From Diploscapter coronatus (lineage: Eukaryota; Nematoda; Chromadorea; Rhabditida; Rhabditidae), in NCBI GenBank assembly GCA_964036155.1, contig OZ038422.1, positions 71,571,201-71,635,200 of the forward strand: a stretch of DNA of 64,000 nt, given 5' to 3'. Position numbers and translations under genes: made by a program. The notes below the pieces were generated by a model. The model saw nothing but the letters and a program-made list of their open reading frames with translations. It searched no databases and was not told the DNA's origin. This document shows positions 17,772-41,900 of this stretch, in pieces. Position 1 is the stretch's first letter; the number at the start of each line of letters is the position of its first letter.

Positions 17772-18063
17772 TAATTTTCGAACCTGTAAATAAATTGCTT
17801 GAGAAAATTTTGATGATATTGTGAATATTATTTGAAGTCAATAGGAGTGGATCATGAAATCGTTCATTAAATTTTAAAAGCTCGAATGAAGTTTTGAACT
17901 TGACTCTGGAGAGTACAAATTGCATGAAAAGGTGAATTTATCGTTAGAATAATGAATTTTCTATATAATTATGACGGATACTAGTTGTTTTTCAATAAAT
18001 AGAAGTAAGCATATTTTAATGCTTGTCACAGAGGTATTTATTTATTGATTCAGTATTCAGAAG

Positions 18064-18252
18064 ATGATAGTAGGCGTGCGAATAGAAGACGTTCTTCGGG
18101 AAAGAAATATTGCAGAATCGATATGGAAAATTTCCTCCGGTAGGCGTACTGAAAATCAAATGTTTTTTTCCTTATATTTTTATTTCACTCCCAACTCCAC
18201 TTCCAAGATCTTTCAATTTGCAGATACTACCCCTAAAATTGGTACTTCCTGA
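18064..18252 (+). CDS. Possible two-exon micro-gene (34 aa), hypothetical
   Basis: Exon 18064-18139 (ATG, 25 codons plus one base) joins in phase to 18224-18252 through a GTAGGC donor and a TTTGCAG acceptor. An acceptor-like TTGATTCAG lies 13 bases before the ATG. The product is a short charged helix (RIEDVLRERNIAESIWK) with a small polar tail. No family is recognised. It could equally be a remnant of a longer gene. Confidence 0.3.
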   Translation: MIVGVRIEDVLRERNIAESIWKISSGRRTENQMFFSLYFYFTPNSTSKIFQFADTTPKIGTS

Positions 18253-18494: not shown

Positions 18495-21400
18495 TTAAGA
18501 AGACTGAGCCTTGGAAATCAAGAGTTTGGACATGAATTGATGATCGGATTTGAGTCTAGCATCAAGGAGAAGATATTTGAGAGTTGACGAGTATTTCTGT
18601 CCACAGACAGAGCTGGAAACGGGATATGAATAGACGTGGAAGGCGAGTTTCTGCAGGAGCGGGAAAGACTCGGCCGCCTCCTTGCTGCGCCAGAATTCGT
18701 CGAATGGAGTGTCGGAAGAGAGGTACGAGAATCGCTTCAGCTCGTCATCGAAGAAGTCGTCCAGGTCACGCAGAGTGGGAGTGCTCGAGTTATCCTCTTC
18801 GAAGATAGCGAATGGATCGTCGTCATTCGACTTCTGCCTCTTGGCCGGTGGCTGGTAAATCCCCAGTCCATGCTCCATTTTCTCTTTCCAATTCGGGAAC
18901 AACTGAGGCAGGAGCGACTTTGCGCATTGAATTGCCTGAAAGATGACAAATGTTATCAAATGAGTGCGAAGTTTAGAAGATCATGATAACGCAGGAATGA
19001 AAGAAGATCAGGGTTGATGATGAAGAGCGAATCAAATCTCCCGGAAATCTATAAAAATGAAAATGGAAAGGTGATATAAGAGTAGAAGGTGTGGAGAAGC
19101 TTGCATCAGTAATAGCATTTGATTCTGATCTTCGTGCGTCGTACCTTCTCTCTGGTCTCTTCCGGCAGGTTGACCATTTTCGTGTACTTTCGGCAGAGAA
19201 GAGTCGCGATGAGGTAGATCGGGCTGACGTGATCGATGATTTTTTTTCGAAGGTACAACAAGGACGAGTTGCACACAGCCTGAAATGGTAAAATGGGTTA
19301 TCGTGCTCAGAAACCATCAGAATCGAGTGCATGGAGTCCGACCTCAAACATTTTGAGGGTAAAAACTCACGGACTACCTTAACGATTTTTGATTGCGACG
19401 TAGCCATCAGCGTATCAATACTTCTTTCCAGTTTGTACAGATGGAGTAGAACGAGGTGCGAGTAGATAGAGGTCGTCTGCAAGTCACTGATTGGTCATGC
19501 ATTTACTTCGCAATGACTAAATAACCTGCAAACTCTTGAGCGCCGATTCAAAGATCTCGAGGAACTTGACGAGTTCTTGGATGTCCAGATCGGACGAGGG
19601 TATGTCGTTGAGAAGACCCTAAAATACCACTTATTTTGTCGCATTCGAACGAAAACCACGAATGATTCGAATTTCAACTCCATAAAATACCTCAATTTTG
19701 ATGAACTTCAAATTTATCGTTCAATATCAACAATGATCTTCATGCTCTTACCGTGATTTTTGAAGTGAGGAGACCTTCGGAATTGTCGCTGGAGAGCTGA
19801 CGGAGTTCTTCAATGACCGAAGGGATCGATCGAAGCATGCGACAGCTGGACATCCAATGAGTTGTATCGAAGATGACTGGCTTCATTGTCAGTCTATCAC
19901 AGAGCTGAAAGAACCGTTGATATGTTGATGCGCTAAACCTTCATTACCATTGGGTGCTGACGAACAGCTCTGGCCAAGTTCGAACACGTCCTCAGAAGTG
20001 TCACCGCCTTCTCGCAGTCATTCAGCTCGGATGAACTTGGAAAACTAGTACCAAAATCCGTGCTGAAATAAGCCAATGCTCCGCGATATTCAGTGTTTGC
20101 ACTTACGGATCAGGTCTCTTGAAGAAATCGCCAGAGAGCGGCAACCACATCTCCTCCTGATCTGCATCATCCGCAGAGTCATTAATCTCTTCGTCTCCCA
20201 CGCTATCAGCAACAGAATCATTGTCATCATTGTTCTGGCTCTCATCTGGTCGATATGCGTTCACTGAAACGAACCCGCGGAATGCAGCCAGTTGAAGGAA
20301 GTGAGCGGTGCAGGTCGTCGCTGAAAAGGAAACAATCAGGGGTTGTTTGAAAGAAGGATAATTCCGACTTGGAACAGCTGAAACTACGAACTCGATTTCA
20401 AGATTGGTTTCAAATACCCCCTTAGAAGTTGCACTTTCAAGTCCGACTTGAGAAAGGTGAGATGACTCAAGATGCGTAAGTTGATGACACTGATGTCGGA
20501 GTAAGCTCACAAAATGCTATCCTCCAAATCACATCTCTCCTCGAGATTTATGAGAAGGTCGAACTTTCTGGGAAACAAAAATTCAAAGATGGAAAAGGGC
20601 AAAACCACATGGAAATGAATGTTTCGGGAGGCTTACAACTCATGAACTTCTGGCCGACCGCTCTCAGCCTCTCCGATCCATCGCACATCCATCCGCACTT
20701 TTTGAGTTGCTCCTCGTTGAGAAGCCACGATGCCGCCTTCTTGATTTTCTCGTAAATCTGAAACCATCAGTGGAATTCTCAAGAAAAAAACAGGTTTACA
20801 TCATCCGTAGTGTCAGCATCTTTGATTTTTACTAGTCCAATCAAATCCGTTCGCAAAGCGATCTGGACCAGGAACGTTTCCAGACACGATGCGTACAGTA
20901 TCAAGTAGCCATCGATTTGCGTGCCGTAATCAGCAGATAGAACGATGGACCCGTACGTATTGAGTGATTTGAAGACCTAGAAGCATAAGATAAGCAATGT
21001 CTAATCAAATCATGAGTGCACCCTCAATCTCAGCGTCTCCATGATGTCATCCGCACGAGTGTCCACTGACACGCGAAGAGAGATAGGCCCTGGAATCGAC
21101 TCCAATGGAATCTCTCTGCCCTGCGCGACACTATAGCGTCAATTTTTACAAAGAAGTAATGGGTATTGATGTACCCGAATTGAATCAAATCGATGACAAA
21201 CTGCTTGAACGCAGGCGAATCCGACTCGTAGATCGACATTCCACTAGCGACGAGGTATCGCCCAATGATGTCCGAAATAACTCGTCTTTCGTTCTGAAAG
21301 AGTCAATTTATCAATGTATAACTCAAGAAAAGGTGATAGACGAGATTATCACAAGTTTGTAACACTTGACCAGTTCCGAGTAGAGATACAATTTGAGAAC

Positions 21401-24400
21401 GATCAAATTACCTATTCTCACTTCCTAGCTTTGGACTTCATCGCATGAATACAGTTCATTTGATTCGTTATCATATTCAGTATCCAAGCTGATCAGACCA
21501 AGTGATATTCCACTTTCAAATTATCTTCTGACATAAACTGTAAAAAATAATACAAGATTAAAACCAACCTGAAATACGTCGATGTCGAGAATCTGTGGCA
21601 GCAACTGCGAGAGCGTAGTATTAGGTGTTGTATTAGATTTTCTAGAACAGTGTGGCGGCAACGACCTTTCGAACGAATGCTTTCTTCGATGCTGTCTGAA
21701 ATTGTTCAGTAATAGTATTTTATCGAAAAATGCCAAGTTTAATTCGTTTTTTCTCGTTTGTTTGAGAAAGACACTTCAAAGTGCGAATGTTTGGAATCTC
21801 ATAAAGAATAGACTCGACGTTTTTTTTGTCAAAAATGTAAGAACTCACGAAAGTTGCGACCCCCCACGTCCACATCTGTCGGAGTAAATCTCTTTGCATC
21901 CATCCTCGAACTCTTTATGGAAATCGCACATCAGATAATGAGTGCGGAATTCGTCTTTGGGCGCAGCGAACCCATTCGGGTCGAGGAACACTATGTCGAA
22001 GCCACTCCGACTGCTCGGCACTGTGAACACGAACTGGAAGACGAAGAATTCGCAATAAAATTATGATAGCCGAAGCGAATAAACGTAAGCCCAGAATACC
22101 ATGCAATGCGTTTCCTTGTTCCTTGCAAAAGCTAGCTTAAATGGTATAAACTTGAGAAAAATTATATTAGGTGGTGAAAGACTTATCAACAGAGTTGGGC
22201 CAAGTTACGATTTCAAAAGTTGTTTTTACCCGAATTTTTGGTTTCGATTCTTTCTCGAAGACAAAAAATCGCTTTAGGGGTTTAAAAATTTGAATTCCGT
22301 CCAATCCTTCTATCATATTTCATCAGACTATTATTTTTAGAAAAAAAACATACCCTCTGTCCATCCTCGTTTCTCGTCTTTGCAATCCACTGCTTCAGCT
22401 TGTTCTTCTCCAGATTTGGATAGACCCCGATCCATTTCTGAGTGGGTGTTTTGGGATTGTCGAGTTCGGCCATAAACTGTTCGTAGCTGGTGGTCGGTTT
22501 GTCGTCAGAATTGAACCAGTCCGTTTCTTCTTCGGTCGTCAGGGCCATCGGAATGTTCAACTGAAGGAAGATGAATAAGAACTTTTTTTTTAAATAGGAA
22601 GGAAAAATCACACGAAAACGAGATGAATAAAATTTATAAAGAATAAAAACAACGTAGGACTTGCGAAGTGGCTAATATATGAGACGTTATTCGTAAAAAT
22701 CGAGTTTTTCATAAAGGAGGGTGGTACCCAAGAAGTTGACCCTCAATATTCGAGCTGATATTTTGTACCTGGTGGTTTTCGACTACGCTGATTACGAATC
22801 TGACGGTTAAAATCCGATCCGACCACTTGTTCCGCATGTTCCGGAAGGTCCGCATTCAGTCGTTTTTAAAAATTCTATTTTCGTTATTTGGCATGGAAAA
22901 AATTCAAATTTGGTATCAAAATGCTCGGAGAGACCAGCTGAGCACGATTCTGAAAAGATCTCGTCGGAATGACACCGAATAAGGAAGCTGTGATGAAAGT
23001 AGTAAAACGTATGGAAAGTACGATATTAATTTTTCACTTCTTTTAATTTTTTATTTTTTAAAAGCCCCAGGTTCCATGAGTTATTTATACTAGGAAGTAG
23101 TCCAGGTCTTCTAGTTTCTGGAACACTTGACCGTTTTCCTATAGACTGCCCGCTAGCTAAGAAATTCCACTTCTTCGAAGAGTTGTTATGGTTCATTTTT
23201 GCCTAGCTTGATTTCAAAAATTCATAACTTCCATAATTCCAAACCAAATTCGATCATTCCTTTTTTATTCGACAGAATTTAATCCATGGATTATCAGACA
23301 ATGAAATAAGAATTTTTTTGAATATCAATTTCTGCAGAAATGCGCACTTTTCGCGTCTTGATTACGTACTTTTCGATTCGTACTGCGTTTACGCGTAAAT
23401 GACGTTAGAAAAATCGTCCCTTCTAGTATTTTGTATAGATGGACATGGTGAATAACTTTATTCCAGGACCAACCTCGAATTCACATTTGTATGAGCTCCG
23501 AAATTTTTTGAAGTATGATGGTCAATTATTACAAAGTGTCGTTTGGACGGTAAATTTTAAAATTCATATCTTTCGATATTTCTGATGAAATTTCATAATT
23601 ATTTTTTTATTTTGTAGATCTTGTCGAAGAGAATATGAAAAAATAAAAAGACAATTTTTAGAAATTAATCTTGGCGGGAAAAAGTTACTCGAAGTTACCC
23701 TATATGCCCGTACTATATTTACAAGTGTAATGCGAGTTAACATCGAAGTTTTCCATGAAATCTTGTAGAGCTGTTCAAGTTGATCAACTTTTGTCCAGAA
23801 CCTATTCTAGAATGTGCACAAACAGGAAGCTATGAATTTTTGAAAATAATGTATAAAAAGGCATTATGTTGAATTTGGCCGTCGTACTTCAAAAAATTGT
23901 GTAACTCATGCGGTAATGATTCTAGGATTGGCCAATGATACAAATTGTTCGCCATGTCCATCTACACAAAATACTAGAAGGGCAGATTTTTCCAACGTCA
24001 TTTACGCGTAAACCCAGGACAGGCCGAAAAGTACGCAATCAAGACGCGAAAAATGCGCATTTCTGCAGAAATTGATATTCAAAAAAATTCTTATTTCATT
24101 GTCTGATAATCCATGGATTAAATTCTGTCTAATAAAGAAAGAACCATTCAATTTGGTTCAGAAATAAGGAAGTTATGAATTTTTAAATCAAACTTAGACA
24201 AAAATGAGCCATGACAACTCTTCGAAGAAGTGAAATTTCTTAGCTAGCGGGCAGTCTATAGGAAAACGGTTAAGTGTTTCAGAAAGTAGAAGACCTGGGC
24301 TACTTCCTAGTATGAATAACTCACGGAACCTGGAGCTTTTAAAAAAAATAAAATTAAAAGAAGTGAAAAATTAATATCGTACTTTCCATACGTTTTACTA

Positions 24401-25812
24401 CTTTCATCACAGCTTCCTTATTCGGTGTCATTCCGACGAAATCTTTTCAGAATCGTGCTCAGCTGGTCTCTCCGAGCATTTTGATACCAAATTTGAATTT
24501 TTTCCATGCCAAATAACGAAAATAGAATTTTTAAAAACGACTGGATGCGGACCTTCCGGAACATGCGGAACAAGTGGTCGGATCGGGTTTTAACCGTCAG
24601 ATTCGTAATCAGCGTAGTCGAAAACCCCCAGGTACAAAATATCAGCTCGAATATTGAGGGTCAACTTCTTGGGTACCACCCCATACTCGATTTTTATGAA
24701 TAACGTGTCATATAGGGTCACTTGAAGATACCCGTTTGGGCTTCTTCAGAAACGAAGATTTTCGTACTTTATCATTTCGAAATTAACTTCATAACTTTAG
24801 TTTTCAGTACTCAACTCCAATTTGACTCATGTAGTTTCGAAGGCAACTTCAACCTTTCACTGCATCTGAATGGGCTTTTTTGGAAGTGCAGTTGGAAATC
24901 CCCTTTTCAATAAAATACCCTGTATTCGTCTTTGCCCGCCTGTTTAATGGCCTCCTCGACCAGCTTGCGCAGTCCAGTGCTCTTCACGATATCATACGCG
25001 TACGTCATCTGAACAGTTTTTTGTTCAGAAATATTTTCAATCAGGGATTTGCTAACGCAATTCAACTCGTTTCGAAAGAAATTCGAGCTGATAAAAAAGT
25101 TGCCTCCGAAAATAACACGAGTCAGCTGAAGTTGCTCTGAAAATAAATTCGAATTGAATTGAGTTCGAAATCGTATGTTTTTTATTTATTTATTTTCTAT
25201 TAGCCACTTCACAAACCCTAACGTCAAGCTTGTCGGTAACAGTAAGACAAACATGATTTTTATTTGAAATTAAAAATTCAAGTTCATTTTCAAAACTTAG
25301 TGATATAGAGATTTTCCCAGAAAAAATGTTTAAAGAAATAGATCAAACCGATAAGACTGATCTCTATATTTTGCAATTTTAAAAATCTACCTCGACATTT
25401 TTGACTTCATGCTCGGTGAGGCAGTGCTCTTCCAACGCTTCCTTGGTGGATCGAGTGACCGTGCAGCCAGGCACTGCGCATTTCCACGGAGCATACTCCA
25501 GATGGGCTTCCGAAATGTGTGCCTGAAATTTGCAGCATGTTTCTCGCTTCTTCGAAAGAAAAATATTCTTTAATAGACTTCTAACATTTTCCGGCCTCCT
25601 AGAAAGTTGGGAGTTCTATGATAAATTCTTTTGAAAATAAACAAAATGCGAACTCCATAAATAGCGATCCCTCAACTGATAAACTTTTCAAAAGGCAATA
25701 TGTTTTTAAAATTATTCTTTCAAAAGTGATTTTTTTCAAATCTATTCAAACTGCCAACTTCCAGCGCTACTCCAGTTTGAACAATGAGCCCACAGAGCTG
25801 ACAGGTCAGCAT
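18495..25812 (-). CDS. Zinc-finger module fused to hAT-type transposase-derived protein
   Basis: Seventeen exons: 25759-25812, 25391-25522, 24919-25008, 22354-22560, 21849-22033, 21569-21695, 21175-21293, 21022-21130, 20800-20976, 20637-20757, 20107-20320, 19948-20062, 19752-19904, 19526-19618, 19378-19476, 19145-19279 and 18495-18935 (856 residues). Residues 1-62 hold two C2H2 fingers (CQLCGLIV...HISEAH; CAVPGC...HCLTEH) and 63-92 a helix (LRKLVEEAIKQAGKDE); this matches the neighbouring paralogue cluster in sequence and intron phase. The rest follows a hAT transposase: SADYGTQ with a candidate first Asp near 357, MCDGSERL with a candidate second Asp near 426, CTAHFLQLAAF, FDTTHWMSSCRML (His replacing Arg of 'RW'), a SPIYLIATLL block, and a C-terminal dimerisation region (EFWRSKEAAESFPLLQKLAF). 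Many introns and long open frames suggest a host gene. An acceptor 10 bases before the ATG supports the start. A 57-bp exon-like segment (20511-20567) does not fit the frame. Confidence 0.82.
22675..24716. mobile_element. Foldback element, about 2.04 kb, with arms of about 0.86 kb
   Basis: The left arm (about 22675-23545) and right arm (about 23870-24716) are reverse complements over nearly their whole length with few mismatches. For example GGTGGTACCCAAGAAGTTGA at 22731 faces its complement near 24665. The centre is a unique spacer of roughly 330 bases. No protein-coding frame is evident. It lies in intron 3 of the hAT-fusion gene. A transcript would form a very long hairpin. Confidence 0.85.
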
Positions 25813-27222: not shown

Positions 27223-30200
27223 CTAAGCAGTTTCTTCGAAGGGTTTCTTCTCCTCCTCGTTATTCATGCTTGTCTCTTCTGTCTCCTCGATGTCCTCGAT
27301 TTCATCATCCGGGTTTGTCACTTCAATCGCAACGTTTGGAATCGGCTCTTCTCTTTCCTCTAGATTTTCTTCAAAATTTTCAACCAAGCTTTCAGCTGCC
27401 TGAAATTAGAGATTTTTTGAAGCCCTGTATTAGCAACTGCTATTTGACAAGGTGATGAGACCTATCTTTTCCCATACTATTTCAGCCTACTTTACCTCCT
27501 TCTCTATCTCTAACTATAGATCTCGTCATATAGTAATTGCCCTTGTATTCAACTAAATGATTAGGCTTTCTTCATAAAAGTAAAAATTCCTTTCCATCTC
27601 CTTCATTTTCTTATTTAGAAAAGGTGGACTTCATAAATTTGTCTCATCGCCAAATATGGGTTGCCACTAGATTTGTGAAGCTATTGTGCCTACCTGGTCA
27701 AAGATGATCCGCTCTGGGAACAGCTCGTGGATGACGTCCAGCACGAGATTTTCGTCGCTGAAGCACACGTTCGAAATCGACTTCAGCAGGTCGCTCCTCC
27801 ATTGCTGAGAAATCATTTTATTGAAAATGTTAATTTATTCCAGCTCATTCGAAACTACCATTAATTTATGGAGATTACTCAAATTTCAAAGTAATAACAA
27901 TTTAGTCTTACAAGTGCATGATCATCGTAACCTGCTCGATTTTTGTGGACCGCTTTGGAATGCGTCTGGAGCGAGCTCAAGTTGGCCACAGAGAAATTGC
28001 ACAGCTGACAGTGGAAACGCTCTTGGCCGAATAGTTTCGACATGTGAGTAGCAACATGGTCCAGGATCATCTGAAAATGAAATTAGAAACGGACCAAAAT
28101 AAAGATCTATCTTTCCGGAAGTTGTTGAAGATGTTGCTCTTCTAAAACAATGATTCCATTTTGTAAACGATTTCAAATTTGTATATTCGAGAAGCTAAGA
28201 AGGAGGATGTAAGGAATAAGACTAAGAATATATATATATATATATATTTATTTTCTTTTCTGATGGTTATAACTTTATTTTTCTTGCGATGGCATCTTTT
28301 TTTTTATTTATTTTTTAAGATAAATCTGATTAATTTTTGAATAAGTCGAAAATGATTAAATAAAAATTGCTAATAAATTGCTGAATGAACTAACCGCATT
28401 AGCGTTGTCCTTGTTGTTGTACCTCGGCAGCCATCGATTGCAGAGCGTGCATTTGGGCGCGTATCGCATAGATCGATGACCGACCATCTGATTTTGAGCC
28501 CTTGGAGTCACATTGCTCGTATTCTTCTTCTGGGGTTTGGGGTTTGGAGTCTAAAATGGAAATATCTTGAAAATCAATATTGAAAAATTCGAAATCCTTA
28601 TGGAAAATGAGAAAATGTCAGTCTTTAAATGTAGTTTATTCCTTCTTCAATTTTCAAATATTTCTGAACATTTTAGGAGCAAAAGGCTCTTTCATATGAT
28701 ATTCAAATAAATTTAAAATTCCGTAAAAGACATTCCAACATAATAAAATTAGTATATGGTTGTAGAAAAAAAAAAGTTCTATACTATTCGCTTTGGAATG
28801 TCTTTTATAGTTTCCAAATTAGTTGTTCATAGAAAGCCTTATAATCTCCGGGATGACGTACACCTTTGACAACTCTGACAGGGACGAACTTTGCGGACTG
28901 TGGAACGATTGGAGTGACTTGTCTGACGGCTGCCCCCCTCTCCTCGATTCTTCTCCTTACGTCCTTCCTACCCGCAGTCACTAGGGCTGTTTCCATCAAG
29001 CGACGCAACTCCTGGCTTTTCCAGGTATTGCACATGTAAGTTACCTGAAAATAGACATTTTCGCTTTTTAAAATGTCAAATATTAAAAAAAAAATATATA
29101 TATATATTTTTAAAGGGTTGAAAAGGGGAATGCAAATAAATTTCGCTCTAAAATCATTTGAAGATTTCATTCATCAGATAGCACCTTGCTAACCTAAAAG
29201 AAATGGAATTTTCGAATGAAAAGTGTAGGACTTTTATGCTTACATAAATCAAAAATTCCCTACCGAAGTAGACCTATCATTGTGCTGAGAGATAACATGC
29301 TTCTGAATCTGTTCCTTGGTGAATCTGGTGGATTTGCAGTGGCTACAGGTCCAGGGCCTGAATTCCAGGTGGATCGAGCAGATGTGCGCCTCGAGTTCCT
29401 CTGTCGAATTCGCTACGATCCCACACTTCGGACAATTGAACTTGTTAGGGAGAGGCTGGAAAAAGTTTTTCCCCTTTATTCAAATTGATATTTTTATGTG
29501 ACTTCAAAAAGTAGCTGCGTCGTAGCATCGTTGCATGCGAACTAGAGTAGGGTTTGTCAGAGAAAAGATCCCTTGTCCATACTATTTCGTGCGCAACGAT
29601 CAAACTATTGCAATCACTGTTCCAGGTTGCTAATGTTTAACTTATGCGATATTATTCCAAGTGATATTTTTATCTCATCGCATTTTGAAAATTTCAGGAA
29701 TAGCTCAATGTGAAGTTCATCAAATTATTCTTCCTCCGAAGTTGTGAACTTTCCGGAAAAAATAAACGAAAAGCGAGGAAAAATCTTACTAGATTTTCGT
29801 AGTTGAAGTTCACATTATTGAGAAGAAAAGCCTGTCGATTATCATCAGCGGCAGAATTTTCAGCTGCGTGGCTGGAAGTAGGCAGCACCTCGATAGAACT
29901 GCCTGTGTACTGAGTGTCGCGGGAATCGGGACGATAACTCGACTCGGAGTTCGATCGGGCTGCAATCATTTCAAAATTATTCCCAAATTTCCATAGGCAA
30001 TTTGGATAGTTCATTGCTTCGTGGCCTATGAAAATATGTGGAAAAATATTTCTTCCTATCTTGTTCGACATTCTTAAATAGGCTACGAAGTAATGAAGCA
30101 ACGAATTATCAAAATTACTGTTTCAAACTTAAAGCTAATTTTAACACAGCATTTGATATATTCATGATTCATGATAATTTATTTAGAGTGAAATTTAGTT

Positions 30201-30944
30201 CCTAGTTTAAGCTGTTAAAGAATCTTCTACCTGGAGATGGAGCTTCTTCTATGAATTCATGCGCAACTTCATCAATATCGCCGATGAGTTCGCCAACGGG
30301 CAGACCATTCATTTGGATTTCAACTGAAAAGTTGAAAATTAAAAAATTGAGTAATTTTCAGGAATTTATGGAATGAAACTAGGGAAACAGTGGTTCGTGA
30401 AGATTGAGCTAATTGAAAAATCTCCGAGAATCTTAGAAACTTTCGTCTTTCCACAACTTTGAAAAATAAATCCAGATCCAATCATTTTTAATTCTTTACA
30501 GAAATATAGCATTTTTACCAATGGCATGATCGATGTGAGAGGTGGGTTCATTTTCCTCAGCCTTGATATCAGCCATGGTCTTTGCCTGTTTGAAGGGCGG
30601 CTCTGTGTTGTCCATTTCTTGACTGACCTCATGTTTCGATCGCTTCTTCGGTATTTCTGCCGCTGGTACCGATTCTGGAAATTTGTATTTTTCTGAAAAA
30701 TAAGATAAAATTTCACCTAGCGACTGAGCAATGCGAGATTTTGGTTCAATATCGTCGATTTTCTCGGCTTTGACTTCGACCACTGAAAACTTGATTTTCA
30801 TTTCGTATAGTTTTAAAAAATGAAAATTTTGAGGACAATTAAAAAGAAAAAAATATATATATTACATTTTTCATCCTTAGAAGGCGTTGGATCAGCAGGT
30901 GTTTCTTCCAAATTTTTATCGTCCTTCTCGGAATCGTTTACCAT
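27223..30944 (-). CDS. C2H2 zinc-finger protein B of tandem cluster (ZIM/HIM-8-like candidate)
   Basis: Eleven exons in agreeing phase: 30866-30944, 30717-30782, 30519-30674, 30231-30323, 29790-29959, 29264-29455, 28862-29044, 28395-28550, 27912-28070, 27694-27804 and 27223-27399, giving 513 residues. Residues 1-188 are acidic and low-complexity (basic patch IPKKRSK; motif SSIEVLPTSS). Fingers 1 and 2 lie at about 196-217 and 226-247 (CPKCGIV...HICSIH; CSHCKST...HVISQH). A helical block follows (SQELRRLMETALVTAGRK). A second unit comprises finger 3 (CTLCNRW, with a long C-to-H gap), finger 4 (CQLCNFS...HSKAVH) and another helix (WRSDLLKSISNVCF). The tail is Glu-rich. Nuclear DNA binding is expected; ZIM/HIM-8 identity is inferred only from the finger type and tandem family. 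The next gene starts 1.4 kb downstream. Confidence 0.85.
27451..27652. repeat. Foldback-type repeat in zinc-finger gene B
   Basis: Arms CAAGGTGATGAGAC and GTCTCATCGCC face each other at the edges, and the sequence TTTTCCCATACTATTTC inside recurs in other repeats of the cluster (29565, 37615, 42050). Confidence 0.4.
29995..30110. repeat. Palindromic repeat in intron of zinc-finger gene B
   Basis: The left arm GATAGTTCATTGCTTCGTGG faces a right arm ending GAAGCAACGAATTATC. The sequence is related to the one at 37564-37661. Confidence 0.45.
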
Positions 30945-31311: not shown

Positions 31312-33980
31312 TCAATCATCAATAGTTATGATATCCGGCTTAGTTTCTTCGACCACTTTAAATGCTTCTTCCTCTTCACAGAAAGGACCTTCCAATTCAC
31401 CTGCATCTTCAAACTCAGACCCAGGACTGCTTATGTAATTCTGATCGTCGCCGTGAAACTCGAAATCCTTCTGATCGTATTCTATCTCGATTCCGTCTTC
31501 TGTTTCAGCCTAAAAAGTCAAAATTATGAGATCAAAAATTAAATGGGGAAAAGCTGATTTGGCAAATTATGAAACTCCAATGCAAAAGCGAAATTTCCAA
31601 AATCTTACTTGCCGTCAAAATTCTGGAACTTCATTTGAAAGCAAAATTGAAAGAAATAAAAAATATTGTACCTGATTAAGGATGACTTCCGCTTTGAATG
31701 AGGTGGCCAAACATTGGAGCACGAAATCCTCATTGTTAAAGCAGAGCCGGGACACTTCTCGAATCAGTGTGGAGTCCCATTTCTGAAAATCTCAAAGCTG
31801 AATAAATTGACAATTTAGAAAATAACGTAAAAAAGCATTTCAATCATTCCTTTTTGTCTTCATTTCGCCATGTTCTCACACAATGTCGTGATATTTTCGA
31901 ATTTCTCGATAAGATCCGAAAAAATGACCAACCAGCGTGAGATCCTCGAAATGCGCGTTTTTGCCCTTGTGCATCTGGGTGGTGTGCAGAAGGAGACCGC
32001 ACTTCTTGTACCCGCTGTAGCTCCTGCAGTGCAGGCAGCGGTAGCGGCTCTTGTTGAACAGCATGAACATGTGGAACGAGGCGTGATCGATTATCTTCTG
32101 AAATTTTTCAAAATATTACTCTTTCGGGCTTAAGATTAAAGTCTTATCGAATTGATTCACTTGAAAACAAATGAAAAGGATCAAGTTGAAACGAACAAGA
32201 TCCTTCATCTTCAAATCAACGTCAAAACTTCCAAGATAATTCGTATGAAGTTATGAAATTACGCTTGAATATTTTGAATTAAAAAAAACCAGATAAATTC
32301 ACTTACATTATTGTGTCGTTTGACATTGAAGGATGAAGGAATCTTGACCTTGCAGAGCGAACAAGTCATTTGGATGGGACCCTCGTTTGCTGGAGATGCT
32401 CGAGATTCGGTGTCGAGTTCATACTGTTAAATATCAAATTGGTTCATATTTTCATAGGTTTTTATTCAAAATGAAAAAGAAAAAGATCTTCCTTGAAAGT
32501 TAATGAATATCCCCAATACTTTAAAGAAAAACGATAAAGAAACATGAAAAAGTTGGAGAATTTCAAAGCAACGAAATAAATAATGAAAGTTCCAATTGAG
32601 TGGTAATTTTTGCACATAAAATACCTGTGGTCGTGGATGCCGGCTGTGATACTGGAGCTCGATTCTGTGACTCATCTCCTTTCTTCCCGCATTCACGAGT
32701 GCAGTGATCAGCATCGTTTGCAACTGCCGACTCTTCTCGAGGTCGATTGTGTAAAGCATCTGAAATAATGCAAATTTCCCCATAAAAATCTCGAGCCTGA
32801 AATTCCTATTTTCACTTCACTAGATTTTCTTGAAAAAATGTAAAAGAACGAGACAAAATTAAGGAAACTTTATACTATGCTCTACTTTTCTTTCATAATA
32901 TTTCCTTTTTTAATAGCAGAAATTGGAAAAAACGCCAACCTCAGGACTTTTGAGATTGTGTTGCGCGTCGTAGTGTCTCTCTAACTGCTCCTTCGAATAC
33001 CTGCTCGCCATACATAGTGTGCACCGCCAGGCCTTGTACGACAGATGCACTTTCATTATGTGCTCCTGAAAATAATCTTAACAAATAATGAACAAGTGAA
33101 AAATACCTCGAGTTCTTCGGTCGATTCCTCCTCTTTTCTGCATTGAGGACAGGTGTATGAACTGGGAAGAGGCTGAAAATTTGAATTGTCACAAGAATCT
33201 TTAAGCTTGAATATTCAAATCGGGTGCATGAAGCATATTTGAAACTTTTCAAAGTTGAAAAATAAAACCCCTCAAAGTCGAGATTCTTGCAAAAATCCAT
33301 AAAAATATTCATGATCTATTCTTTGAAAAATTTCATCTTGAATTAAAAAAAGTAAAAACTAACCAACTGATGCAGTTCGATGTCGGAATAGTCGTAAGTA
33401 GCGGTTGTTGGGTCGAAGTCCTTGCTGGCAGTGCTCGTCGAGGGCAGAATTTCGATGGAATCGTCCGAATCCGACTCAACTTCACAAGGCCGGATGATAT
33501 TCGCTGCACTCACCACAACTTGATCGATGCTCTCCTTGATACGCGACTCATTCTCGATTTTATACGCTAAAATACAAGGTTTTTCCAATGGATATAAAAT
33601 TCGGTTAAAAAGTATGCATGTTTTGAATAAAATGTTAGACTATTCATTTTTAAATTAGAAATTAAAGTTTACTGACTCCCTGTAAAATTCATCAAGCCTT
33701 GAAAGTAGGGAGTGTAGGGGAAAGAAAAATAACTGGTAAATTTTGCAAATTGTGGTCATGGTAAGTTGATTAGTTATACAGTGGGCCAAGTTTACCCAGC
33801 GTCTGATCGATGTAGGAGATTCGCTCAGCCTGACCGCTTTGCTCCTTCTTGACTTCAGCCACTGAAAAAGTAAAGATAAAGTTTCTAGAAAATTTGAAGA
33901 TGTTTACATTTTGTCAGTTTGGCAGGGGGTGAAGCAACAGCTTCATCTTCCAACTCATCCAATCTCGACCGACCTGGCAT
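31312..33980 (-). CDS. C2H2 zinc-finger protein C of tandem cluster (ZIM/HIM-8-like candidate)
   Basis: Ten exons in agreeing phase: 33908-33980, 33796-33861, 33364-33566, 33107-33172, 32940-33065, 32625-32759, 32307-32423, 31933-32097, 31672-31782 and 31312-31509, giving 419 residues. It is a clear paralogue of gene B: an acidic N terminus with DDSIEILPSTS; finger 1 (CPQCRKE...HIMKVH) split by an intron after Glu-Glu-Leu-Glu where gene B has none; finger 2 (CTLCMAS...HYDAQH); the helix SRQLQTMLITALVNAGRK; finger 3 (CSLCKVK); finger 4 (CLHCRSY...HTTQMH); the helix WDSTLIREVSRLCF; and an acidic tail. The exon of 111 bp has the same length as in gene B. It ends 368 bp before the start of gene B, which suits an operon with downstream trans-splicing. 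Confidence 0.87.
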
Positions 33981-34325: not shown

Positions 34326-37300
34326 TCATGAAGAAGTTCCAGGTTTCACTTCCTTTGCATCCTGATTTTGAGGTGCTGGTTTCGACTTGAACATAACGCG
34401 AGTTCCATCTGCATATCGAGGCACGGGTTTGAGCGAGGGTTGAGCGATTTTAGACGGGGGTTGAACGATTTTGGGCATGAATTTGACTGGCTGCTGCTCG
34501 ACCACTTTTAACTTGTGAAAAAGGAGATTTACAGGGGTAGTTGGCTGAAATAGTGAAATTAAAAAAATGAAATTTTCTATAGATACGAAATGACAGGATG
34601 ATATGAGGTATTGCAAGAGATAAAGAGTGAGAATTATGAGGGATAATTAGAGTTCCCAAGTGGATATGCCAAGTCTCATCATGGCTTTTTGAAAAGTTCA
34701 CCTACTTTTGGTGTAAAATTGTGTTATTATAAACAAAAATACTAAAATCTCAAGAAGCTGTCATGTCGTCATTTAGGAATAATCATAATTAAAAAATAAA
34801 TTTCTTACTCCATGTTTGATGCCTGAACGCTTGAGGATGTTGAGTGAATTGATGCAGTCGCTAATGAATTCGCTCATTTTGAAGCAGTAATACGACAATT
34901 TTTTCACTACGAACGTCTCCCACGACTGAAATACAATTTTCAACACATTAAAAATATGTTAATTTTGCTTTGAGATATTCATTCATGAAGTTAGAGGACA
35001 GATACGACGAATGCAACTCATTCCGCTGACAAAGTACTCATAATCATTTGGATTCGTCTACATAATTTAATGGGACACTCCTATCCAGAACTCGCCATTT
35101 TAGAATTTACTTATTAAGATGCATAAAATCATTTTGATGCTTAATGTAAAAGTTTCTATAATCCAATTTTAGTTCATAAAATCATAAAAATGATAATAAA
35201 AACTACAATTTTTGGCGAGTTTTTAGCGATTTTTGTAAAAGAATTAAAGGGTAATTCAAGTGAAAAAACGACTTTTGAATACAGCGAAATATTTTCATGT
35301 CAAGTAGAAAACTTCAAGAAATTTTAAAGTAATTAGAATACAAAATTCGTATGTTAAAAATGAATTAACTGGAAATCAATATTTTCATATACTTTCATAC
35401 CGAAACTGAAGTCAAAATAGGTTTTGATTATTTCCATGATCAATTTTAGCCTTTCTTTCAATTAACTTCGAACTTTGAAAATAATAAAGAAAGCTTAAAG
35501 TGATTTTTTAGGAAAAAAGTAAAGTAAAGTGGCAAATGATGTAAAATGACTAACCTGAATCTTATCAATGTACGCGAATTCGCTGTCCGGGTGATGCGAC
35601 AAGTAGTGGATTTGCAGTGTCTTCATCTTGCCGGCACAGAACTGGCAGTACTTGCACTTGTAGCGAGGCACGTTGTAGACTGCGTACATGTGGATGGACA
35701 CGTGGTCTTGAAGTGCTTCCTGCAAAAAATCCTTATTGAAAAATTATTGAAATTGCATGTTATAAGCCTTATCGAGGTGTTGTACCAATTTTCAAAACTA
35801 AATTAATTATTCTAAACTTGCTCATACTGAATTTGTATAAGCTCTCTAGATGAATTCTATCTATTTGAAAGTCAACCCATCTGTCAGGTGAAATAGAGTT
35901 GGAGAATAGGAAATTGGATAAATTTTCAATAAACCGCTATGCTAAAATGGAACTTACGATATCTTGAACATTGACGCAGGGTAGATCGCGATGGCATATT
36001 CGACAATAGACGGTTACAGTCTGATCATCGTCAGCATTTGAGACAGGAGTAGAAACTGGAGCAGAAACAGGAACTGGATCAGGAGCGGGAGGCTTAGATG
36101 TGGTCGGTTTCTGAAAAGTATTTTTGAAAATTATTTTTCCAGGAAAGGAGAATTTTTTTGCCAAAAATGTTCTCTAATCGAAGCTTTAACTCATGTTTTA
36201 GAAATTTCGTAAATAAATAAAATTGACCTGATCTTGAAGTTGGTTGAGTGGAATGAAGGACGAGGTTTGGGGAGGAACGATTGGTACCAAATTAGTCCTG
36301 GGAGGTCTGATTGTAGAAGGACACAAGGTATTGAGTTGCTTCTTGCTGAGCCTTCTTCCGGTGATAATCACAACTTCTGTCATCAAGTCGCGAAGATACG
36401 TGCTTTTAGCCTTGTTGCATTCGTACGATACCTGAAAATCATTCAACGTTTTCTTGATCTATCAGAGGCGTCAAATAGAAATCCCAAATAATTTCGTATC
36501 AAAGATAAAATTTTTCGAGATAAAGGAGCAGGATCAAAACTCAGTGCTCTCGATGTTTTATATATTCCTGAAAATTGATGGAAGAGAAAAATAAGAAACA
36601 AGCATAACGAACTGTAGGACTGGCTGTGCCGTGTTCAGTGACTGAATGCGATTCTATTTCCTCGCTGGTGGGTGCACGAGCCTGGCACACATTGCACACA
36701 TATGGCTCGTATTGAACGTGTTCCCGAGAAACGTGGATCTGAAATAAGAAACTAGGACATTTCCAAGCTTTTAATACAAAAATTGTTGAATGGTAGAATA
36801 TTTTAGGAAAGATTATGTTTGCCGTTTTATTCAGTTTCTCATTTTTCAAAATAACCTCATAGGAAGTCCGAAGAGTGTTATACTTATCGATTTCTTAAAC
36901 TCTAAGAAGCTTTACAAAATTGATCATTTGAAAAAGTCTGAGTTCAAAACCAACCTCGAGGCAAGCAGGAGTGTCGTATGAATTGCCGCAGAGAGGACAG
37001 TTGAAGAGAATAGGCTCGGGCTCCTTTTCCCTCAAATCAGGAATGGTCGGAATCAAGGCTCGTCCGGGTTTGGGTTGGGACGGTTTGAACATCCGCGAGT
37101 CGTTAATTACGCTGTTGATTATGTCGTCGATTGGGTCTGCAAAATTCAATATTGTGGTAAACTTATTTTCCTATGCTGAAAAGAGATTTTTTTGAAAAAA
37201 TTCGATAAGTCGTACCGAAAGATCGATGATTATAAGATTTGGAAGAATGAGAAGATTCAGTCGATTCGCACCAATTTTCATCTTCTTCAAGAACAATAGG

Positions 37301-38128
37301 CTCAGTTTCTTCGGCTGAAATTTCAGTTCCCGTTAAAATTGACTGTAGATCCGAATTACAATCATTAAACATTTGGACTATGCAATGATAGAAATATTTT
37401 TCAAATTACAAGAAAGTTTAAATTATTACGCCTCATCTGGTTGAAGCTGTTCGGATCATCAGGTTCTTGCTTGATTTCAGAGTCATCCATTGGCCGTCTT
37501 CTCAAATCCATTTCCATTGCTACTGGATCTAAATTTTGAAAATTGTTAGAAAAGGCGATTTGAATAATTCGTTACTTCGCTACATAAAAGAAGGGTATAG
37601 GGCAAAGTAGGGAGATATCTTTTCTCATACTATTTCGTAGGTAACGAAGTAACGAATTATCCAGGTTTCCTTAAACAAGACGAATAAGAAAATGTGATTA
37701 TTCAAAATGTCAATAAATTTTAAGGTCAAGTCTTACCAAAAGACGGCTCACGATCAGAATTCGAAGAATGTGCAGACTCAGCAGATTCGCACAGATTGAT
37801 TTCATCTTCGCCAACATCAGGCTCTATTTCTTCGGCTGTAAGGTTAGCTTTATGCATTTTTCTGATCGATCAAAAGTAGTGGGTCAAAATTGTGGAACAA
37901 CTTTACAATCAGCGATGTCTTAATTTCACTTGTGAAAAATTCGAAAGTGCGTGATCTCGGAACCGAGATTTTCAGGATCGAAAAGAAGAAATATCCCGGT
38001 TATAATCTTCAAAAAGTGCAGATATTGAAAAGATACTAACGTTTGACTTGCTTGTAGAGAGGCATTTCTTCGGACTCCTCTTTGATTTCCAAATCATCCA
38101 ATGGTCGTTTTCGCGATCTCATATCCAT
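34326..38128 (-). CDS. C2H2 zinc-finger protein D of tandem cluster (ZIM/HIM-8-like candidate)
   Basis: Eleven exons: 38041-38128, 37737-37835, 37430-37528, 37216-37314, 36955-37136, 36613-36738, 36228-36431, 35958-36110, 35555-35719, 34809-34925 and 34326-34544, giving 516 residues. The N-terminal 130 residues come from three consecutive 99-bp exons after the first, forming a duplicated exon pair: DPSEMDM/DPVAMEM blocks with RPLDD or RPMDD, then EEIEP/EETEP blocks with CES. Fingers 1 and 2 follow (CPLCGNSYDTPACLE; CNVCQAR...HSVTEH), then a helix (STYLRDLMTEVVIITGRR), a Pro/Val/Ser-rich linker, finger 3 (CRICHRD...HVSIH), finger 4 (CKYCQFC...HYLSHH), a helix (WETFVVKKLSYYCFK) and a basic Pro/Lys-rich tail unlike the acidic tails of B and C. 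It ends 346 bp before gene C. The start ATG follows an ATTCAG acceptor by 11 bases. Confidence 0.86.
37564..37661. repeat. Palindromic repeat in intron of zinc-finger gene D
   Basis: Arms ATAATTCGTTACTTCGCTAC and GTAACGAAGTAACGAATTAT flank TTTTCTCATACTATTTCGTA. It is related to the repeats at 29995 and 42050. Confidence 0.55.
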
Positions 38129-38922: not shown

Positions 38923-41900
38923 CTACTCTTCCTCTTCCACTTCCATTTTGACTTTGTCACAGAGCTTAGAGAGTGGCACAAAGGAGGAACGGGCGTTCGG
39001 AGTTGAATTTGCAACGGCATCGATCGATTCTGAAACAATAGATTCAAAAGTAACGCGTATTGCGGCTTTATATTTGACTGAGTTATCTTTCTCTCACGAC
39101 GTTATTTTTCCCCACCTCGCATTTTTGAGAAAACCCTTCCTTGAAAGCGCAAGTGGGGAAAAAGTAACCGTGCGAGAGAAAAATAACTCTGCTTTTATAT
39201 TTTCACAGAACTGGATGGCGGCTCGTGCGTGCGTTCTGATGCTAATGATCGAAAATAGGAAATAATAATTAGTCTATAGGCATCCATTTTCGGATTGAAA
39301 AAATTCCAGTATCTTTTCCTTGATTTGCGCCTATCTTCGAACATTGGCATTGGAGCGAATTCATACGGTTCAAATAGAAAGAGATTCGCGATAAAATTAG
39401 ACTGTTTGTCAAAAAATTTCAGACCTGAGTGACGAGATAGTGTTGTATCGATAGTGGAAAAGATAATCTCTTCTCTTCTGTCTCTCAAAAAGACAGGCTA
39501 TCTCGTCACTCGGGCCTAAATTTGCAGCCCTAGCCGGCATACAATTCTTACCCTGAATATGCTGACTGCTTTCTGGATCGGGCTTGATATAGTCCTGTTT
39601 GTGGAAGCTGCTCAGCTCGTTGCCGGTCTGTGTCTGATTGTTGGGCAGTTTCTGATAGCCCTGCGAGTTGGCGAGTCGCACTCGCGGACTCAGCTCGTTC
39701 TTGGCTCGTCTGTAGAGCCGCGTTATGTTATCAGAATGAATCATGTATCGCATAGAATTTGCCTGAAACTATTTAACTTCTAATGCGATTTTCAGAATAT
39801 TTTTAAGGTCAAATTTAGCCATTCTAAATGAAAGTCTTTCTTCTTTCAAAACGCGTTGCATCTCTTCTCGTGTTTCCAATCAGAAATTTCGAAGGAAAAG
39901 TTAATCCAATAAGTTCTCGGAATTGATAAAAAAAAAATTAGCATCCTGACTTCAACATCATTTTCACTATTTCCTATTAGAAATATTGTAAAGATGTTCG
40001 AAATAGGCGATTCGTAAATGACGAGATGACGATATCCATATAGTGTGCAAAACGAAAAATCGTCATCTCGTCATTTATGAATTGCCTCAAGACAGCACTT
40101 GAATTCCAAAAGAACATTGGACTGCCCGTTTTTAAAATTACGAAAATCCTACCCCATTTTTTCCGATAGGAACAGAAAGAGTCACACTGCGCTTGGCAGG
40201 AATCATAGGAAGCGGGGGGAGGGGTTCAACAAGTGCCGACTGTTTCTGCTCTTCAGTCGCAAGCACAGATGCAGCCTCTTTCCAAACCTCGACTGCATTT
40301 GTAGTCGGGGTCGTGACTTTTGCGATATTTGCCATCTTCTTGCCCCGATTCACCAGCGACTCTTCCAGCATTCGATGCAACTTCTCGTTCTTTCCCTTGT
40401 CGTAGAGGAACACCATCTGGAATCGTAAAAGTAAACGAAAACTCGAATCTCCTTAGAAACCTACTCTGAAAAGATTTGGTTTTGATGTAAATCTAGACAG
40501 TTTAGGGAGAGGTACGCAAGAAACGAATTTTGTCTCTAGAAAAATGATGCATGAGGGGGTAACGCACGGAAATTCCCTCTCTTAAAGCTGTCTAGGTCTA
40601 TTTTTGTGATTTTGATTTTTATCAAAAATAAACACGTTTTAGAAAGTGAAAAGTGAGTTCTATCAAATAACCTCCACATCAAACTCTACCTCCGGTTTAT
40701 CCTGATCATGTTCCTTCTTGCAGTGATCGGCGAGGTCTTCACAGGTCGACAGAGTCGCCAAACAAGTCATGCAGCGCCAGGGAGTCCAATTCAGATGGAA
40801 ACGGCAGATGTGATACTGAAAGTTGTGAACGATAAATAAGGGGGGAAATGTATGAAATTTCATTTTTGATCATTTTCAAAATAATGGGAAATTTTTATCT
40901 TGAAAAATCGAAATGTCTAATCTTCACGAGATTATTTACCTCGAGAGTTTTGATAGAAGGAGTGATGAAGCCACACAGAGAGCATGATACCATCATAGGG
41001 TTGCTGAATAAAAAATGTTAGCCAAAATGAAAAATAAAATTTTTCGTTATAATTCCACAAGGTTTGAAATTTGTGAAATTCAAACGAAATAATGGGTTAT
41101 TTCATTGTTTAGTTTATTATTAAAAAAAGATTCATTATTGAACTCATTCAAAAATCGTGGAAAAGTTAGATTTTTTTCGAAAGCATCATAAAAAATACCT
41201 GCTTCCAGGTTCACCTTCCGGCGCCTTATCTGAGGGTCGCTGTTCGAGAGGACTCTGTCTAGGTTTGTACGGTTTAGGCAGTTTGCCGGTCGTTTTCAGC
41301 TTCTGGGCGATTCGGAAGTACGCATTGTACGCCTGCTGCTTGCTCATCATCATTCCCCGCTCGGCCATGAGCTTCTGATTGGCCTCTGCCAACGCCGTCT
41401 GCATATCTCTATGCTTTTCCGCGAGCTCCGTCAGATGCAAAATATGACTCCTGAAATGTCCTTAATCATTGAGATATAGAAGAATTGAAAATTTTGATCT
41501 TTCTGTCACGATATGAACGGAATTGTGAAATTAGCTAGCCGCAGATTTGGAGTAAACCTTTGGTTGTGAAAAAATGAATATCAATTCTTATCAAGTTTGA
41601 AGAAGCATGAATGTGAAAAGAGATTGCGGTTGCTCCTTCTATAGTCGGTCAACAATTGCTAATCAAGCAACTGCACAATTTACTCGAATAAACAAGAAGA
41701 AAGGAGAATATAACATTTAAAAGAGGCAACCCGAAGCGACAGCACACTGCCCGAACAAGAAGCAAGAGATGAGCCTTGAGGGGGAAATGATGGCAACTAA
41801 AAAATAACCGTAAGAGAACACGAGAGACGGAGAGAAAGAAAAGATGTAGAGAAAATCAATAGTCGATGTGCAGTCAGTGGCTGTAAGAGGAGAGAGAGAA

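Follow-up and report, generated by a model that had tools for sequence, protein, structure and literature searches.

We analysed a stretch of 64,000 nucleotides from the nematode Diploscapter coronatus, hereafter the window, which corresponds to C1:71571201-71635200 in an assembly of 169.7 Mb. The assembly consists of two contigs of 87.7 and 82.0 Mb (C1 and C2) and a remainder of about 13 kb. Haplotype alignment placed C2 66.76-66.82 Mb along the window, with gaps, and the same-strand pieces longer than 300 bp were 87-95% identical. We read the assembly as that of a Diploscapter with one chromosome, diploid and phased, with the C2 stretch as the allele of the window; the excerpted text of PMC5483258 gives a diploid assembly of 170 Mb, 2n = 2 and over 270,000 ESTs for D. 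coronatus. The gene of interest lies on the minus strand at 18495..25812. Its first three exons encode two C2H2 zinc fingers and a helix, and the remaining 14 are related to hAT transposases. As judged from sequence comparison, a domesticated and catalytically dead hAT gene very probably lies here inside a tandem array of paired-C2H2 genes.

The gene anatomy proposed by a sequence-only reading of the window was reproduced. With boundaries set by hand, 17 exons formed a single frame of 856 residues on C1, with GT-AG at every internal junction:

Exon 1, 25759..25812, minus strand: first half of C2H2 finger 1 (C-x2-C); ATG 10 nt past a TTTCAG acceptor.
Exon 2, 25391..25522, minus strand: remainder of finger 1 and finger 2 (C-x4-C-x12-H-x4-H).
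Exon 3, 24919..25008, minus strand: helix MTYAYDIVKSTGLRKLVEEAIKQAGKDEYR, homologous to the helix exons of the neighbours; 5-nt deletion in the C2 allele.
Exon 4, 22354..22560, minus strand: first hAT-derived exon; a Met in frame lies 12 nt past the acceptor.
Exon 5, 21849..22033, minus strand: hand-set model and Diploscapter pachys match.
Exon 6, 21569..21695, minus strand: with exon 5, a possible degenerate BED-like finger, by eye only.
Exon 7, 21175..21293, minus strand: hand-set model and D. pachys match.
Exon 8, 21022..21130, minus strand: hand-set model and D. pachys match.
Exon 9, 20800..20976, minus strand: SADYG, with the presumed first Asp of the catalytic triad at about 20929-20931, by eye.
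Exon 10, 20637..20757, minus strand: GWMCDG, with the presumed second Asp of the catalytic triad at about 20680-20682, by eye.
Exon 11, 20107..20320, minus strand: CTAHFLQLA, a hAT-like C-x2-H block by eye.
Exon 12, 19948..20062, minus strand: hand-set model and D. pachys match.
Exon 13, 19752..19904, minus strand: hand-set model and D. pachys match.
Exon 14, 19526..19618, minus strand: hand-set model and D. pachys match.
Exon 15, 19378..19476, minus strand: hand-set model and D. pachys match.
Exon 16, 19145..19279, minus strand: hand-set model and D. pachys match.
Exon 17, 18495..18935, minus strand: hAT C-terminal dimerisation domain; SSSVCGQKYS, with the Glu lost at about 18600-18602.

The boundaries of exons 5-17 are independently supported, because a D. 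pachys protein aligned with their products over 695 residues with zero gaps. Near-agreement between the gene predictor and this model is circular, because the exons of the fusion itself had served as training data; the predicted exon 6 ended nine bases earlier. The stretch 20637-20320 was tried as coding sequence and rejected, as its allele differences look intronic and it has no counterpart in the D. pachys protein.

The assignment of exons 4-17 to the hAT superfamily was borne out. Exon 17 exceeded the PF05699 cut-off of 21.4 bits (22.2 bits with the whole protein, 26.1 with the open reading frame, 26.9 with the C1 locus and 28.3 with the C2 locus), and residues 686-852 were 31-32% identical to the 196-residue open reading frame of two mobile elements in the same genome, L017 (32%, E 3e-20) and L018. 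With the whole protein as query, no other hAT profile matched at E <=1, and zf-BED had no match at that threshold. The hAT part was 96% identical to D. pachys WR25_24891 isoform B, and a protein search with residues 93-856 gave one match among 7986 candidates scored, from D. pachys. A search of PDB sequences with this D. pachys relative found nothing at E <=1. AlphaFold2 without an alignment gave mean predicted local distance difference test scores of 36.0 for the same protein and 37.8 for the D. pachys relative of the neighbouring gene G1, values too low for fold matches to carry meaning.

We next compared the catalytic residues. In exon 17, SSSVCGQKYS aligned with SCSCERTFS of the two mobile relatives: the CER of L017 and L018 is CGQ in C1, C2 and D. 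pachys, a change of Glu to Gly. The Glu of the CER motif, which we take to be the catalytic hAT Glu, is essential in hAT enzymes. Of the catalytic Asp, Asp and Glu, the Glu is thus lost, and the two Asp were assigned by eye. The hAT proteins of C1, C2 and D. pachys are all open over the 695 compared residues. Exons 4-17 differed between C1 and C2 by 54 synonymous and 25 non-synonymous changes, with a synonymous rate (pS) of 0.108, a non-synonymous rate (pN) of 0.014 and a pN/pS of 0.13 (P ~2e-18); codons split by introns were left out of these rates. Given these rates and the loss of the Glu, the hAT part encodes a selected protein that is probably catalytically dead. Residue differences over the 695 positions numbered 25 for C1-C2, 25 for C1-D. 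pachys and 8 for C2-D. pachys. The C2 haplotype is therefore far nearer the D. pachys protein than C1 is (8 vs 25 of 695), as if the histories of the haplotypes differed.

L017 and L018 are located at C1:32.25 and 44.04 Mb and account for two of the nine genomic PF05699 matches described below. Each measures 1.4 kb, carries CAGGGATGTTCGCGG repeats and is flanked by perfect 8-bp target duplications; the terminal repeats of L017 are CAGGGATG, and L018 carries a near-copy of the L017 open reading frame. A low-threshold tblastn search returned mostly noise, and only its top matches were used. The 20-base repeat end had ten exact matches genome-wide. A partner end was found at seven of these loci, including both elements, and was not found at the other three in the stretch examined; the 8-bp flanks of the seven paired loci were identical in three and differed at one or two bases in four. 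The non-autonomous elements (L017/L025 and L018/L026) resemble the window gene in the C-terminal open reading frame and differ from it in having kept CER, the terminal repeats and the 8-bp target duplications. Loci L024-L033 represent a small-element family with CAGGGATGTTCGCGGTGCGG ends, several of them with 8-bp target duplications.

The presence of mobile non-autonomous relatives of the same subfamily raised the alternative that the gene is a still mobile hAT element that captured zinc-finger exons. This is very improbable. Even with up to 3 mismatches allowed, the window contained no match to the first 15 bases of the relatives' repeat, other repeat types not being modelled; the catalytic Glu is lost; the hAT part is divided into 14 exons; and the gene occupies the same site on both haplotypes. 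Moreover, the subfamily's C-terminal open reading frame had only four genome matches at E <=0.01, two of which are the alleles of this gene. An active transposon was rejected. The purifying selection (pN/pS 0.13) and the missing repeat match are what a domesticated hAT gene would be expected to display.

We then examined exons 1-3 and the genes upstream of them. The two fingers are C-x2-C-x12-H-x4-H and C-x4-C-x12-H-x4-H and are followed by the helix. The neighbouring array genes, whose predictor models are provisional, those of the upstream exons of G4 most of all, are as follows:

G1, 27223..30944, minus strand: two finger-finger-helix modules; relative in D. pachys, WR25_14253; provisional model.
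G2, 31312..33980, minus strand: two modules, laid out as in G1; provisional model.
G3, 34326..38128, minus strand: two modules, laid out as in G1; provisional model.
G4, 38923..41003, minus strand: module 1 and a C-terminal part; upstream exons uncertain; provisional model.

A second module was present in three of the four neighbours (G1-G3), whereas searches of G4 and of the fused frame turned up none. A protein search with G1 gave one match among 850 candidates, from D. pachys. The finger pair of exons 1-3 matched those of G1, G2, G3 and G4 with z scores of 11.1, 6.7, 9.0 and 8.0, and the helix matched theirs with z scores of 11.0, 7.6, 4.7 and 7.2. These scores were based on 2000 shuffles with C and H kept in place, and 0 of 2000 shuffles scored as high in any of the eight comparisons. 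Five control finger pairs, two typed by hand and three taken from the neighbours' own second modules, reached only 1.1-3.3. The finger similarity is thus far above random expectation, and the likeness of the helix claimed by the sequence-only reading held for all four neighbours.

Other parts of the claimed likeness stood less completely. All four neighbours share the phase-0 boundary after finger 2 (the predictor's G4 donor lies 18 nt further on, in the same phase). The intron ahead of the first His of finger 1 is common to three of them, whereas G1 has both fingers in one exon (29440-29264). The finger match as a whole held in four of four, but the spacing of finger 2 is C-x4-C in exons 1-3 and C-x2-C in the neighbours. 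Exon 3 stops directly after the helix, whereas the helix exons of the neighbours continue further. With the finger-finger-helix order and the exon boundaries of the family, exons 1-3 are, on sequence evidence, the front module of an array-family member.

The hAT gene stands inside the array, because on C2 an additional paired-C2H2 gene, G0, lies directly 3' of it; array-family genes (G1 and G0) thus flank it on both sides there. G0 matched the family in its fingers (E 4.9e-17) and helix (E 3.4e-5), with a weak second module (E 0.014 and 0.23). It lies at C2:66778518-66781458, in a 3.8-kb stretch that is missing from C1. In the window, the haplotype alignment marks two further features:

18058..18145, no strand: breakpoint of the C2-only 3.8-kb stretch with G0 inside, directly 3' of the hAT gene.
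22681..24709, no strand: foldback insertion of 2.03 kb in intron 3, with 826-nt arms that are 90% complementary; present on C1 and absent from C2.

Genome-wide, the finger family had at least 61 exon-level matches at E <=0.01 on both chromosomes (114 candidates scored; array and alleles included). Further paired-C2H2 clusters lie at C1:83.46, 51.84-51.95, 44.63-44.66, 7.55 and 6.84 Mb, with C2 counterparts. PF05699 matched at 9 places among the matches listed at E <=0.001. In that list, the two alleles of this gene adjoin the finger family, and over 400 kb separate each of the other seven hAT dimerisation matches from the nearest family match listed; the hAT and finger-family lists are both lower bounds. 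Another hAT-derived locus, L019 (C1:75.75 Mb) and L020 (C2:70.82 Mb), has long open reading frames, is 92% identical between the two contigs and is apparently an allelic pair. Finger phylogeny, called for by the sequence-only reading, was run on 10 module rows. A 94/95 branch separated the array from family members elsewhere, and the fused module fell on the same side as the array, in a tree with a midpoint root, no branch at the program's own star and flagged long branches; the order within the array, including the place of the fused module among its members, fell on unresolved branches.

Two origins had been offered for the locus. The first, a host zinc-finger gene acquiring hAT sequence, fits the distribution of the family over many loci, the position of the hAT gene within the array and the tree placement, and a landing of hAT sequence in an array gene fits likewise. 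The second, in which the whole finger family would be derived from a hAT transposase by loss of the catalytic part, is disfavoured and highly unlikely: its sole point is the adjacency at this locus, against which stand the many loci of the family, the distance of the seven other listed hAT matches and the array-side position of the fused module.

We next determined whether exons 3 and 4 can be joined. The foldback is no obstacle, because on C2, which lacks it, the two exons are separated by only 324 bp, within the 42-382 bp range of the other introns of this gene. With the same splice sites, the join is in frame and the fused frame open on C1 only; on C2 it is closed. The introns on either side of exon 3 resemble diverged inverted copies of each other (25009-25390 vs 22561-22680 and 24710-24918). 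On C2, the local score of this likeness was 76. The highest of 300 dinucleotide shuffles reached 58, and control scores against 28 other introns were at most 52 for intron 2 and 42 for intron 3.

Several observations weigh against a fusion. Because C2 exon 3 lacks 5 nt, both plausible donors fall in phase 1 there, and the C2 exon 3-4 join meets a stop less than 20 codons on. Six GT sites occur in the first 140 bases on C2, and only two keep the frame, both early in exon 3. Exon 3 also has the highest non-synonymous rate of the exons counted (pN 0.078, pS 0.200), followed by exon 11 at about 0.036. The D. pachys protein, of 718 residues, has its start upstream of exon 5, where its residues derive from the intron. 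With residues 1-180 as query, none of 385 candidate proteins matched at E <=10. Exon 4 has its own Met 12 nt past a good acceptor, and the 324-bp gap resembles the G3-G2 (345 bp) and G2-G1 (367 bp) spaces, so an operon-like gene boundary is possible.

The exon 4 Met past its strong acceptor and the size of the gap also speak for the alternative of two neighbouring genes, which we regard as a serious competitor with a somewhat less than even chance. Exons 1-3 would be a truncated array gene of about 95-110 residues, and the hAT gene would start from the exon 4 Met with a spliced leader at the acceptor. The C2 frameshift leaves the hAT frame intact, as two genes would allow, and no protein joining the finger and hAT halves was found in the protein searches. 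Because these searches need shared 5-residue words and restrict scoring to proteins of similar length, they may miss distant relatives and short models annotated separately. The read-through ends of exon 3 speak against two genes: they are KDEYRVFY* and GRIQGIFIEKG...QMQ*, and such a difference between haplotypes is unexpected for a conserved short protein. The donor GGGTATTT is likewise present on both haplotypes. In addition, AATAAA was absent from the C2 gap (340 nt scanned) and from the first 260 nt past the exon 3 stop on C1. Since two of five gene ends also lack it within 500 nt and three have it (the scanned stretches differ in length), this shortage favours one gene only weakly.

Haplotype differences were also counted upstream of the join. 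Exons 1-2 showed 5 synonymous and 2 non-synonymous changes (ratio 0.12, P ~0.01), which counts in favour of the fusion, and exons 1-3 together a pN/pS of 0.23 (P 0.012). The 25 codons of exon 3 before the deletion had 4.5 non-synonymous and 3.5 synonymous changes (P 0.09 for synonymous excess). The deletion and the raised non-synonymous rate of exon 3, together with the foldback inserted in C1 intron 3, are compatible with the decay of a fusion that once worked and is now open on C1 and broken on C2; a parthenogenetic, permanently heterozygous animal would tolerate this. We consider decay unlikely, as the hAT exons are strongly constrained with no internal stop on either haplotype, and the 8 differences between C2 and D. 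pachys include four changes private to each.

Taken together, the odds of one fused gene and of two adjacent genes are roughly the same. The claim of a finger-hAT fusion as one gene stood in its in-frame junctions on C1, and was weakened by the C2 frameshift and by the D. pachys model that starts downstream. The chance that a fusion protein is made from C1 would be even. As a whole, the fusion is our best explanation, at a shade under even odds. A hAT transposase gene would have been caught in the tandem paired-C2H2 array, next to the helix exon of a member that has lost its second half. The hAT gene has lost its catalytic Glu, carries no recognisable terminal repeat and has been retained by selection as a host gene. 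Because all C1 junctions are in frame, the C1 product would most likely be a host-transposase fusion. We infer a single transcript on C1, whose two fingers and helix would provide DNA contact, whose dead RNase-H/insertion body may act as a scaffold and whose hAT C-terminal block may serve as a dimerisation surface. The product would be a dimeric DNA-binding protein with a presumed regulatory role. On C2, the fusion may be disabled, exon 3 may be skipped, which keeps the frame because the end of exon 2 and the start of exon 4 are both in phase 0, or the hAT part may be made alone from the exon 4 Met.

We also asked whether the array resembles the HIM-8/ZIM genes. A module-2 profile of 7 rows, including two near-identical pairs, weakly matched PDB chains 8YVA and 8YVB (E 0.029 and 0.041) over a finger and about 25 residues beyond it; we take these chains to be ZIM/HIM-8 structures. 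They ranked 43rd and 48th in the best 60 of 102 PDB matches. Most chains above them were ordinary C2H2 proteins matched over the finger only, and at least one other chain above them, U1-C, had a match that likewise extended past the finger. A separate module-2 profile search gave 8YVB at E 0.059, and the second module of G3 alone gave 8YVB around the finger only (E 0.057). The module-1 profile gave ordinary C2H2 chains in the best 60 of 189 matches. Because helix-only profiles and the second module of G2 alone did not find 8YVA or 8YVB in PDB, the weak matches deserve little weight.

In C. elegans, the HIM-8/ZIM family comprises four genes in one operon, according to excerpts of PMC9071541 and PMC5483258. 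The array is like this family in having related C2H2 genes side by side and unlike it in the two finger-pair modules carried by three of its four genes in the window. The excerpt of PMC5483258 reports HIM-8 and the ZIMs as absent from D. coronatus, and that of PMC8455136 reports homologues in many Clade V genomes but not in Pristionchus. It is improbable that the paired-C2H2 arrays are diverged Diploscapter counterparts of HIM-8/ZIM, one of which had its second half swapped for a dead hAT, making a dimerising chromosome-binding protein in an animal with one chromosome pair. If true, these counterparts would be present in D. coronatus, where they were reported missing.

Known host-transposase fusions include SETMAR, CSB-PGBD3 and KRABINER (excerpt of PMC12062965). 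As in the C1 frame, a host regulatory domain is described there in frame with a transposase-derived protein. The window gene differs in that its host part is a C2H2 pair and a helix, its hAT lacks the Glu, its C2 allele is out of frame and its joint transcript is a prediction. Domesticated hATs include the ZBED genes, the SLEEPER genes and the Caenorhabditis LIN-15B-domain family (excerpt of PMC12570147), which resemble the window gene as intact genes with a hAT-like dimerisation block kept by selection. The same excerpt notes that the LIN-15B domain also includes a hAT-like region and that LIN-15B-domain genes were undetected in D. pachys and D. coronatus; the window gene would be a separate Diploscapter gene. 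No title describing a nematode C2H2-hAT fusion was found among the openly licensed papers listed on domesticated nematode hAT transposases with zinc fingers (the best 15 of 23) and on host-transposase fusions (the best 12 of 1,297). The locus likely adds to the known host-transposase-fusion and domesticated-hAT genes.

Expression of the fusion would provide a nematode case in which a host DNA-binding module is attached to a hAT body, in a parthenogenetic animal with a single chromosome. Because only one allele has an open fusion frame, comparing the two alleles could show what the fusion does. Even if it is not expressed, the locus contains a hAT gene that lacks the Glu, is under selection and sits within a zinc-finger array. 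With its many loci and several double finger-finger-helix members, the family of the array is worth comparing with HIM-8/ZIM.

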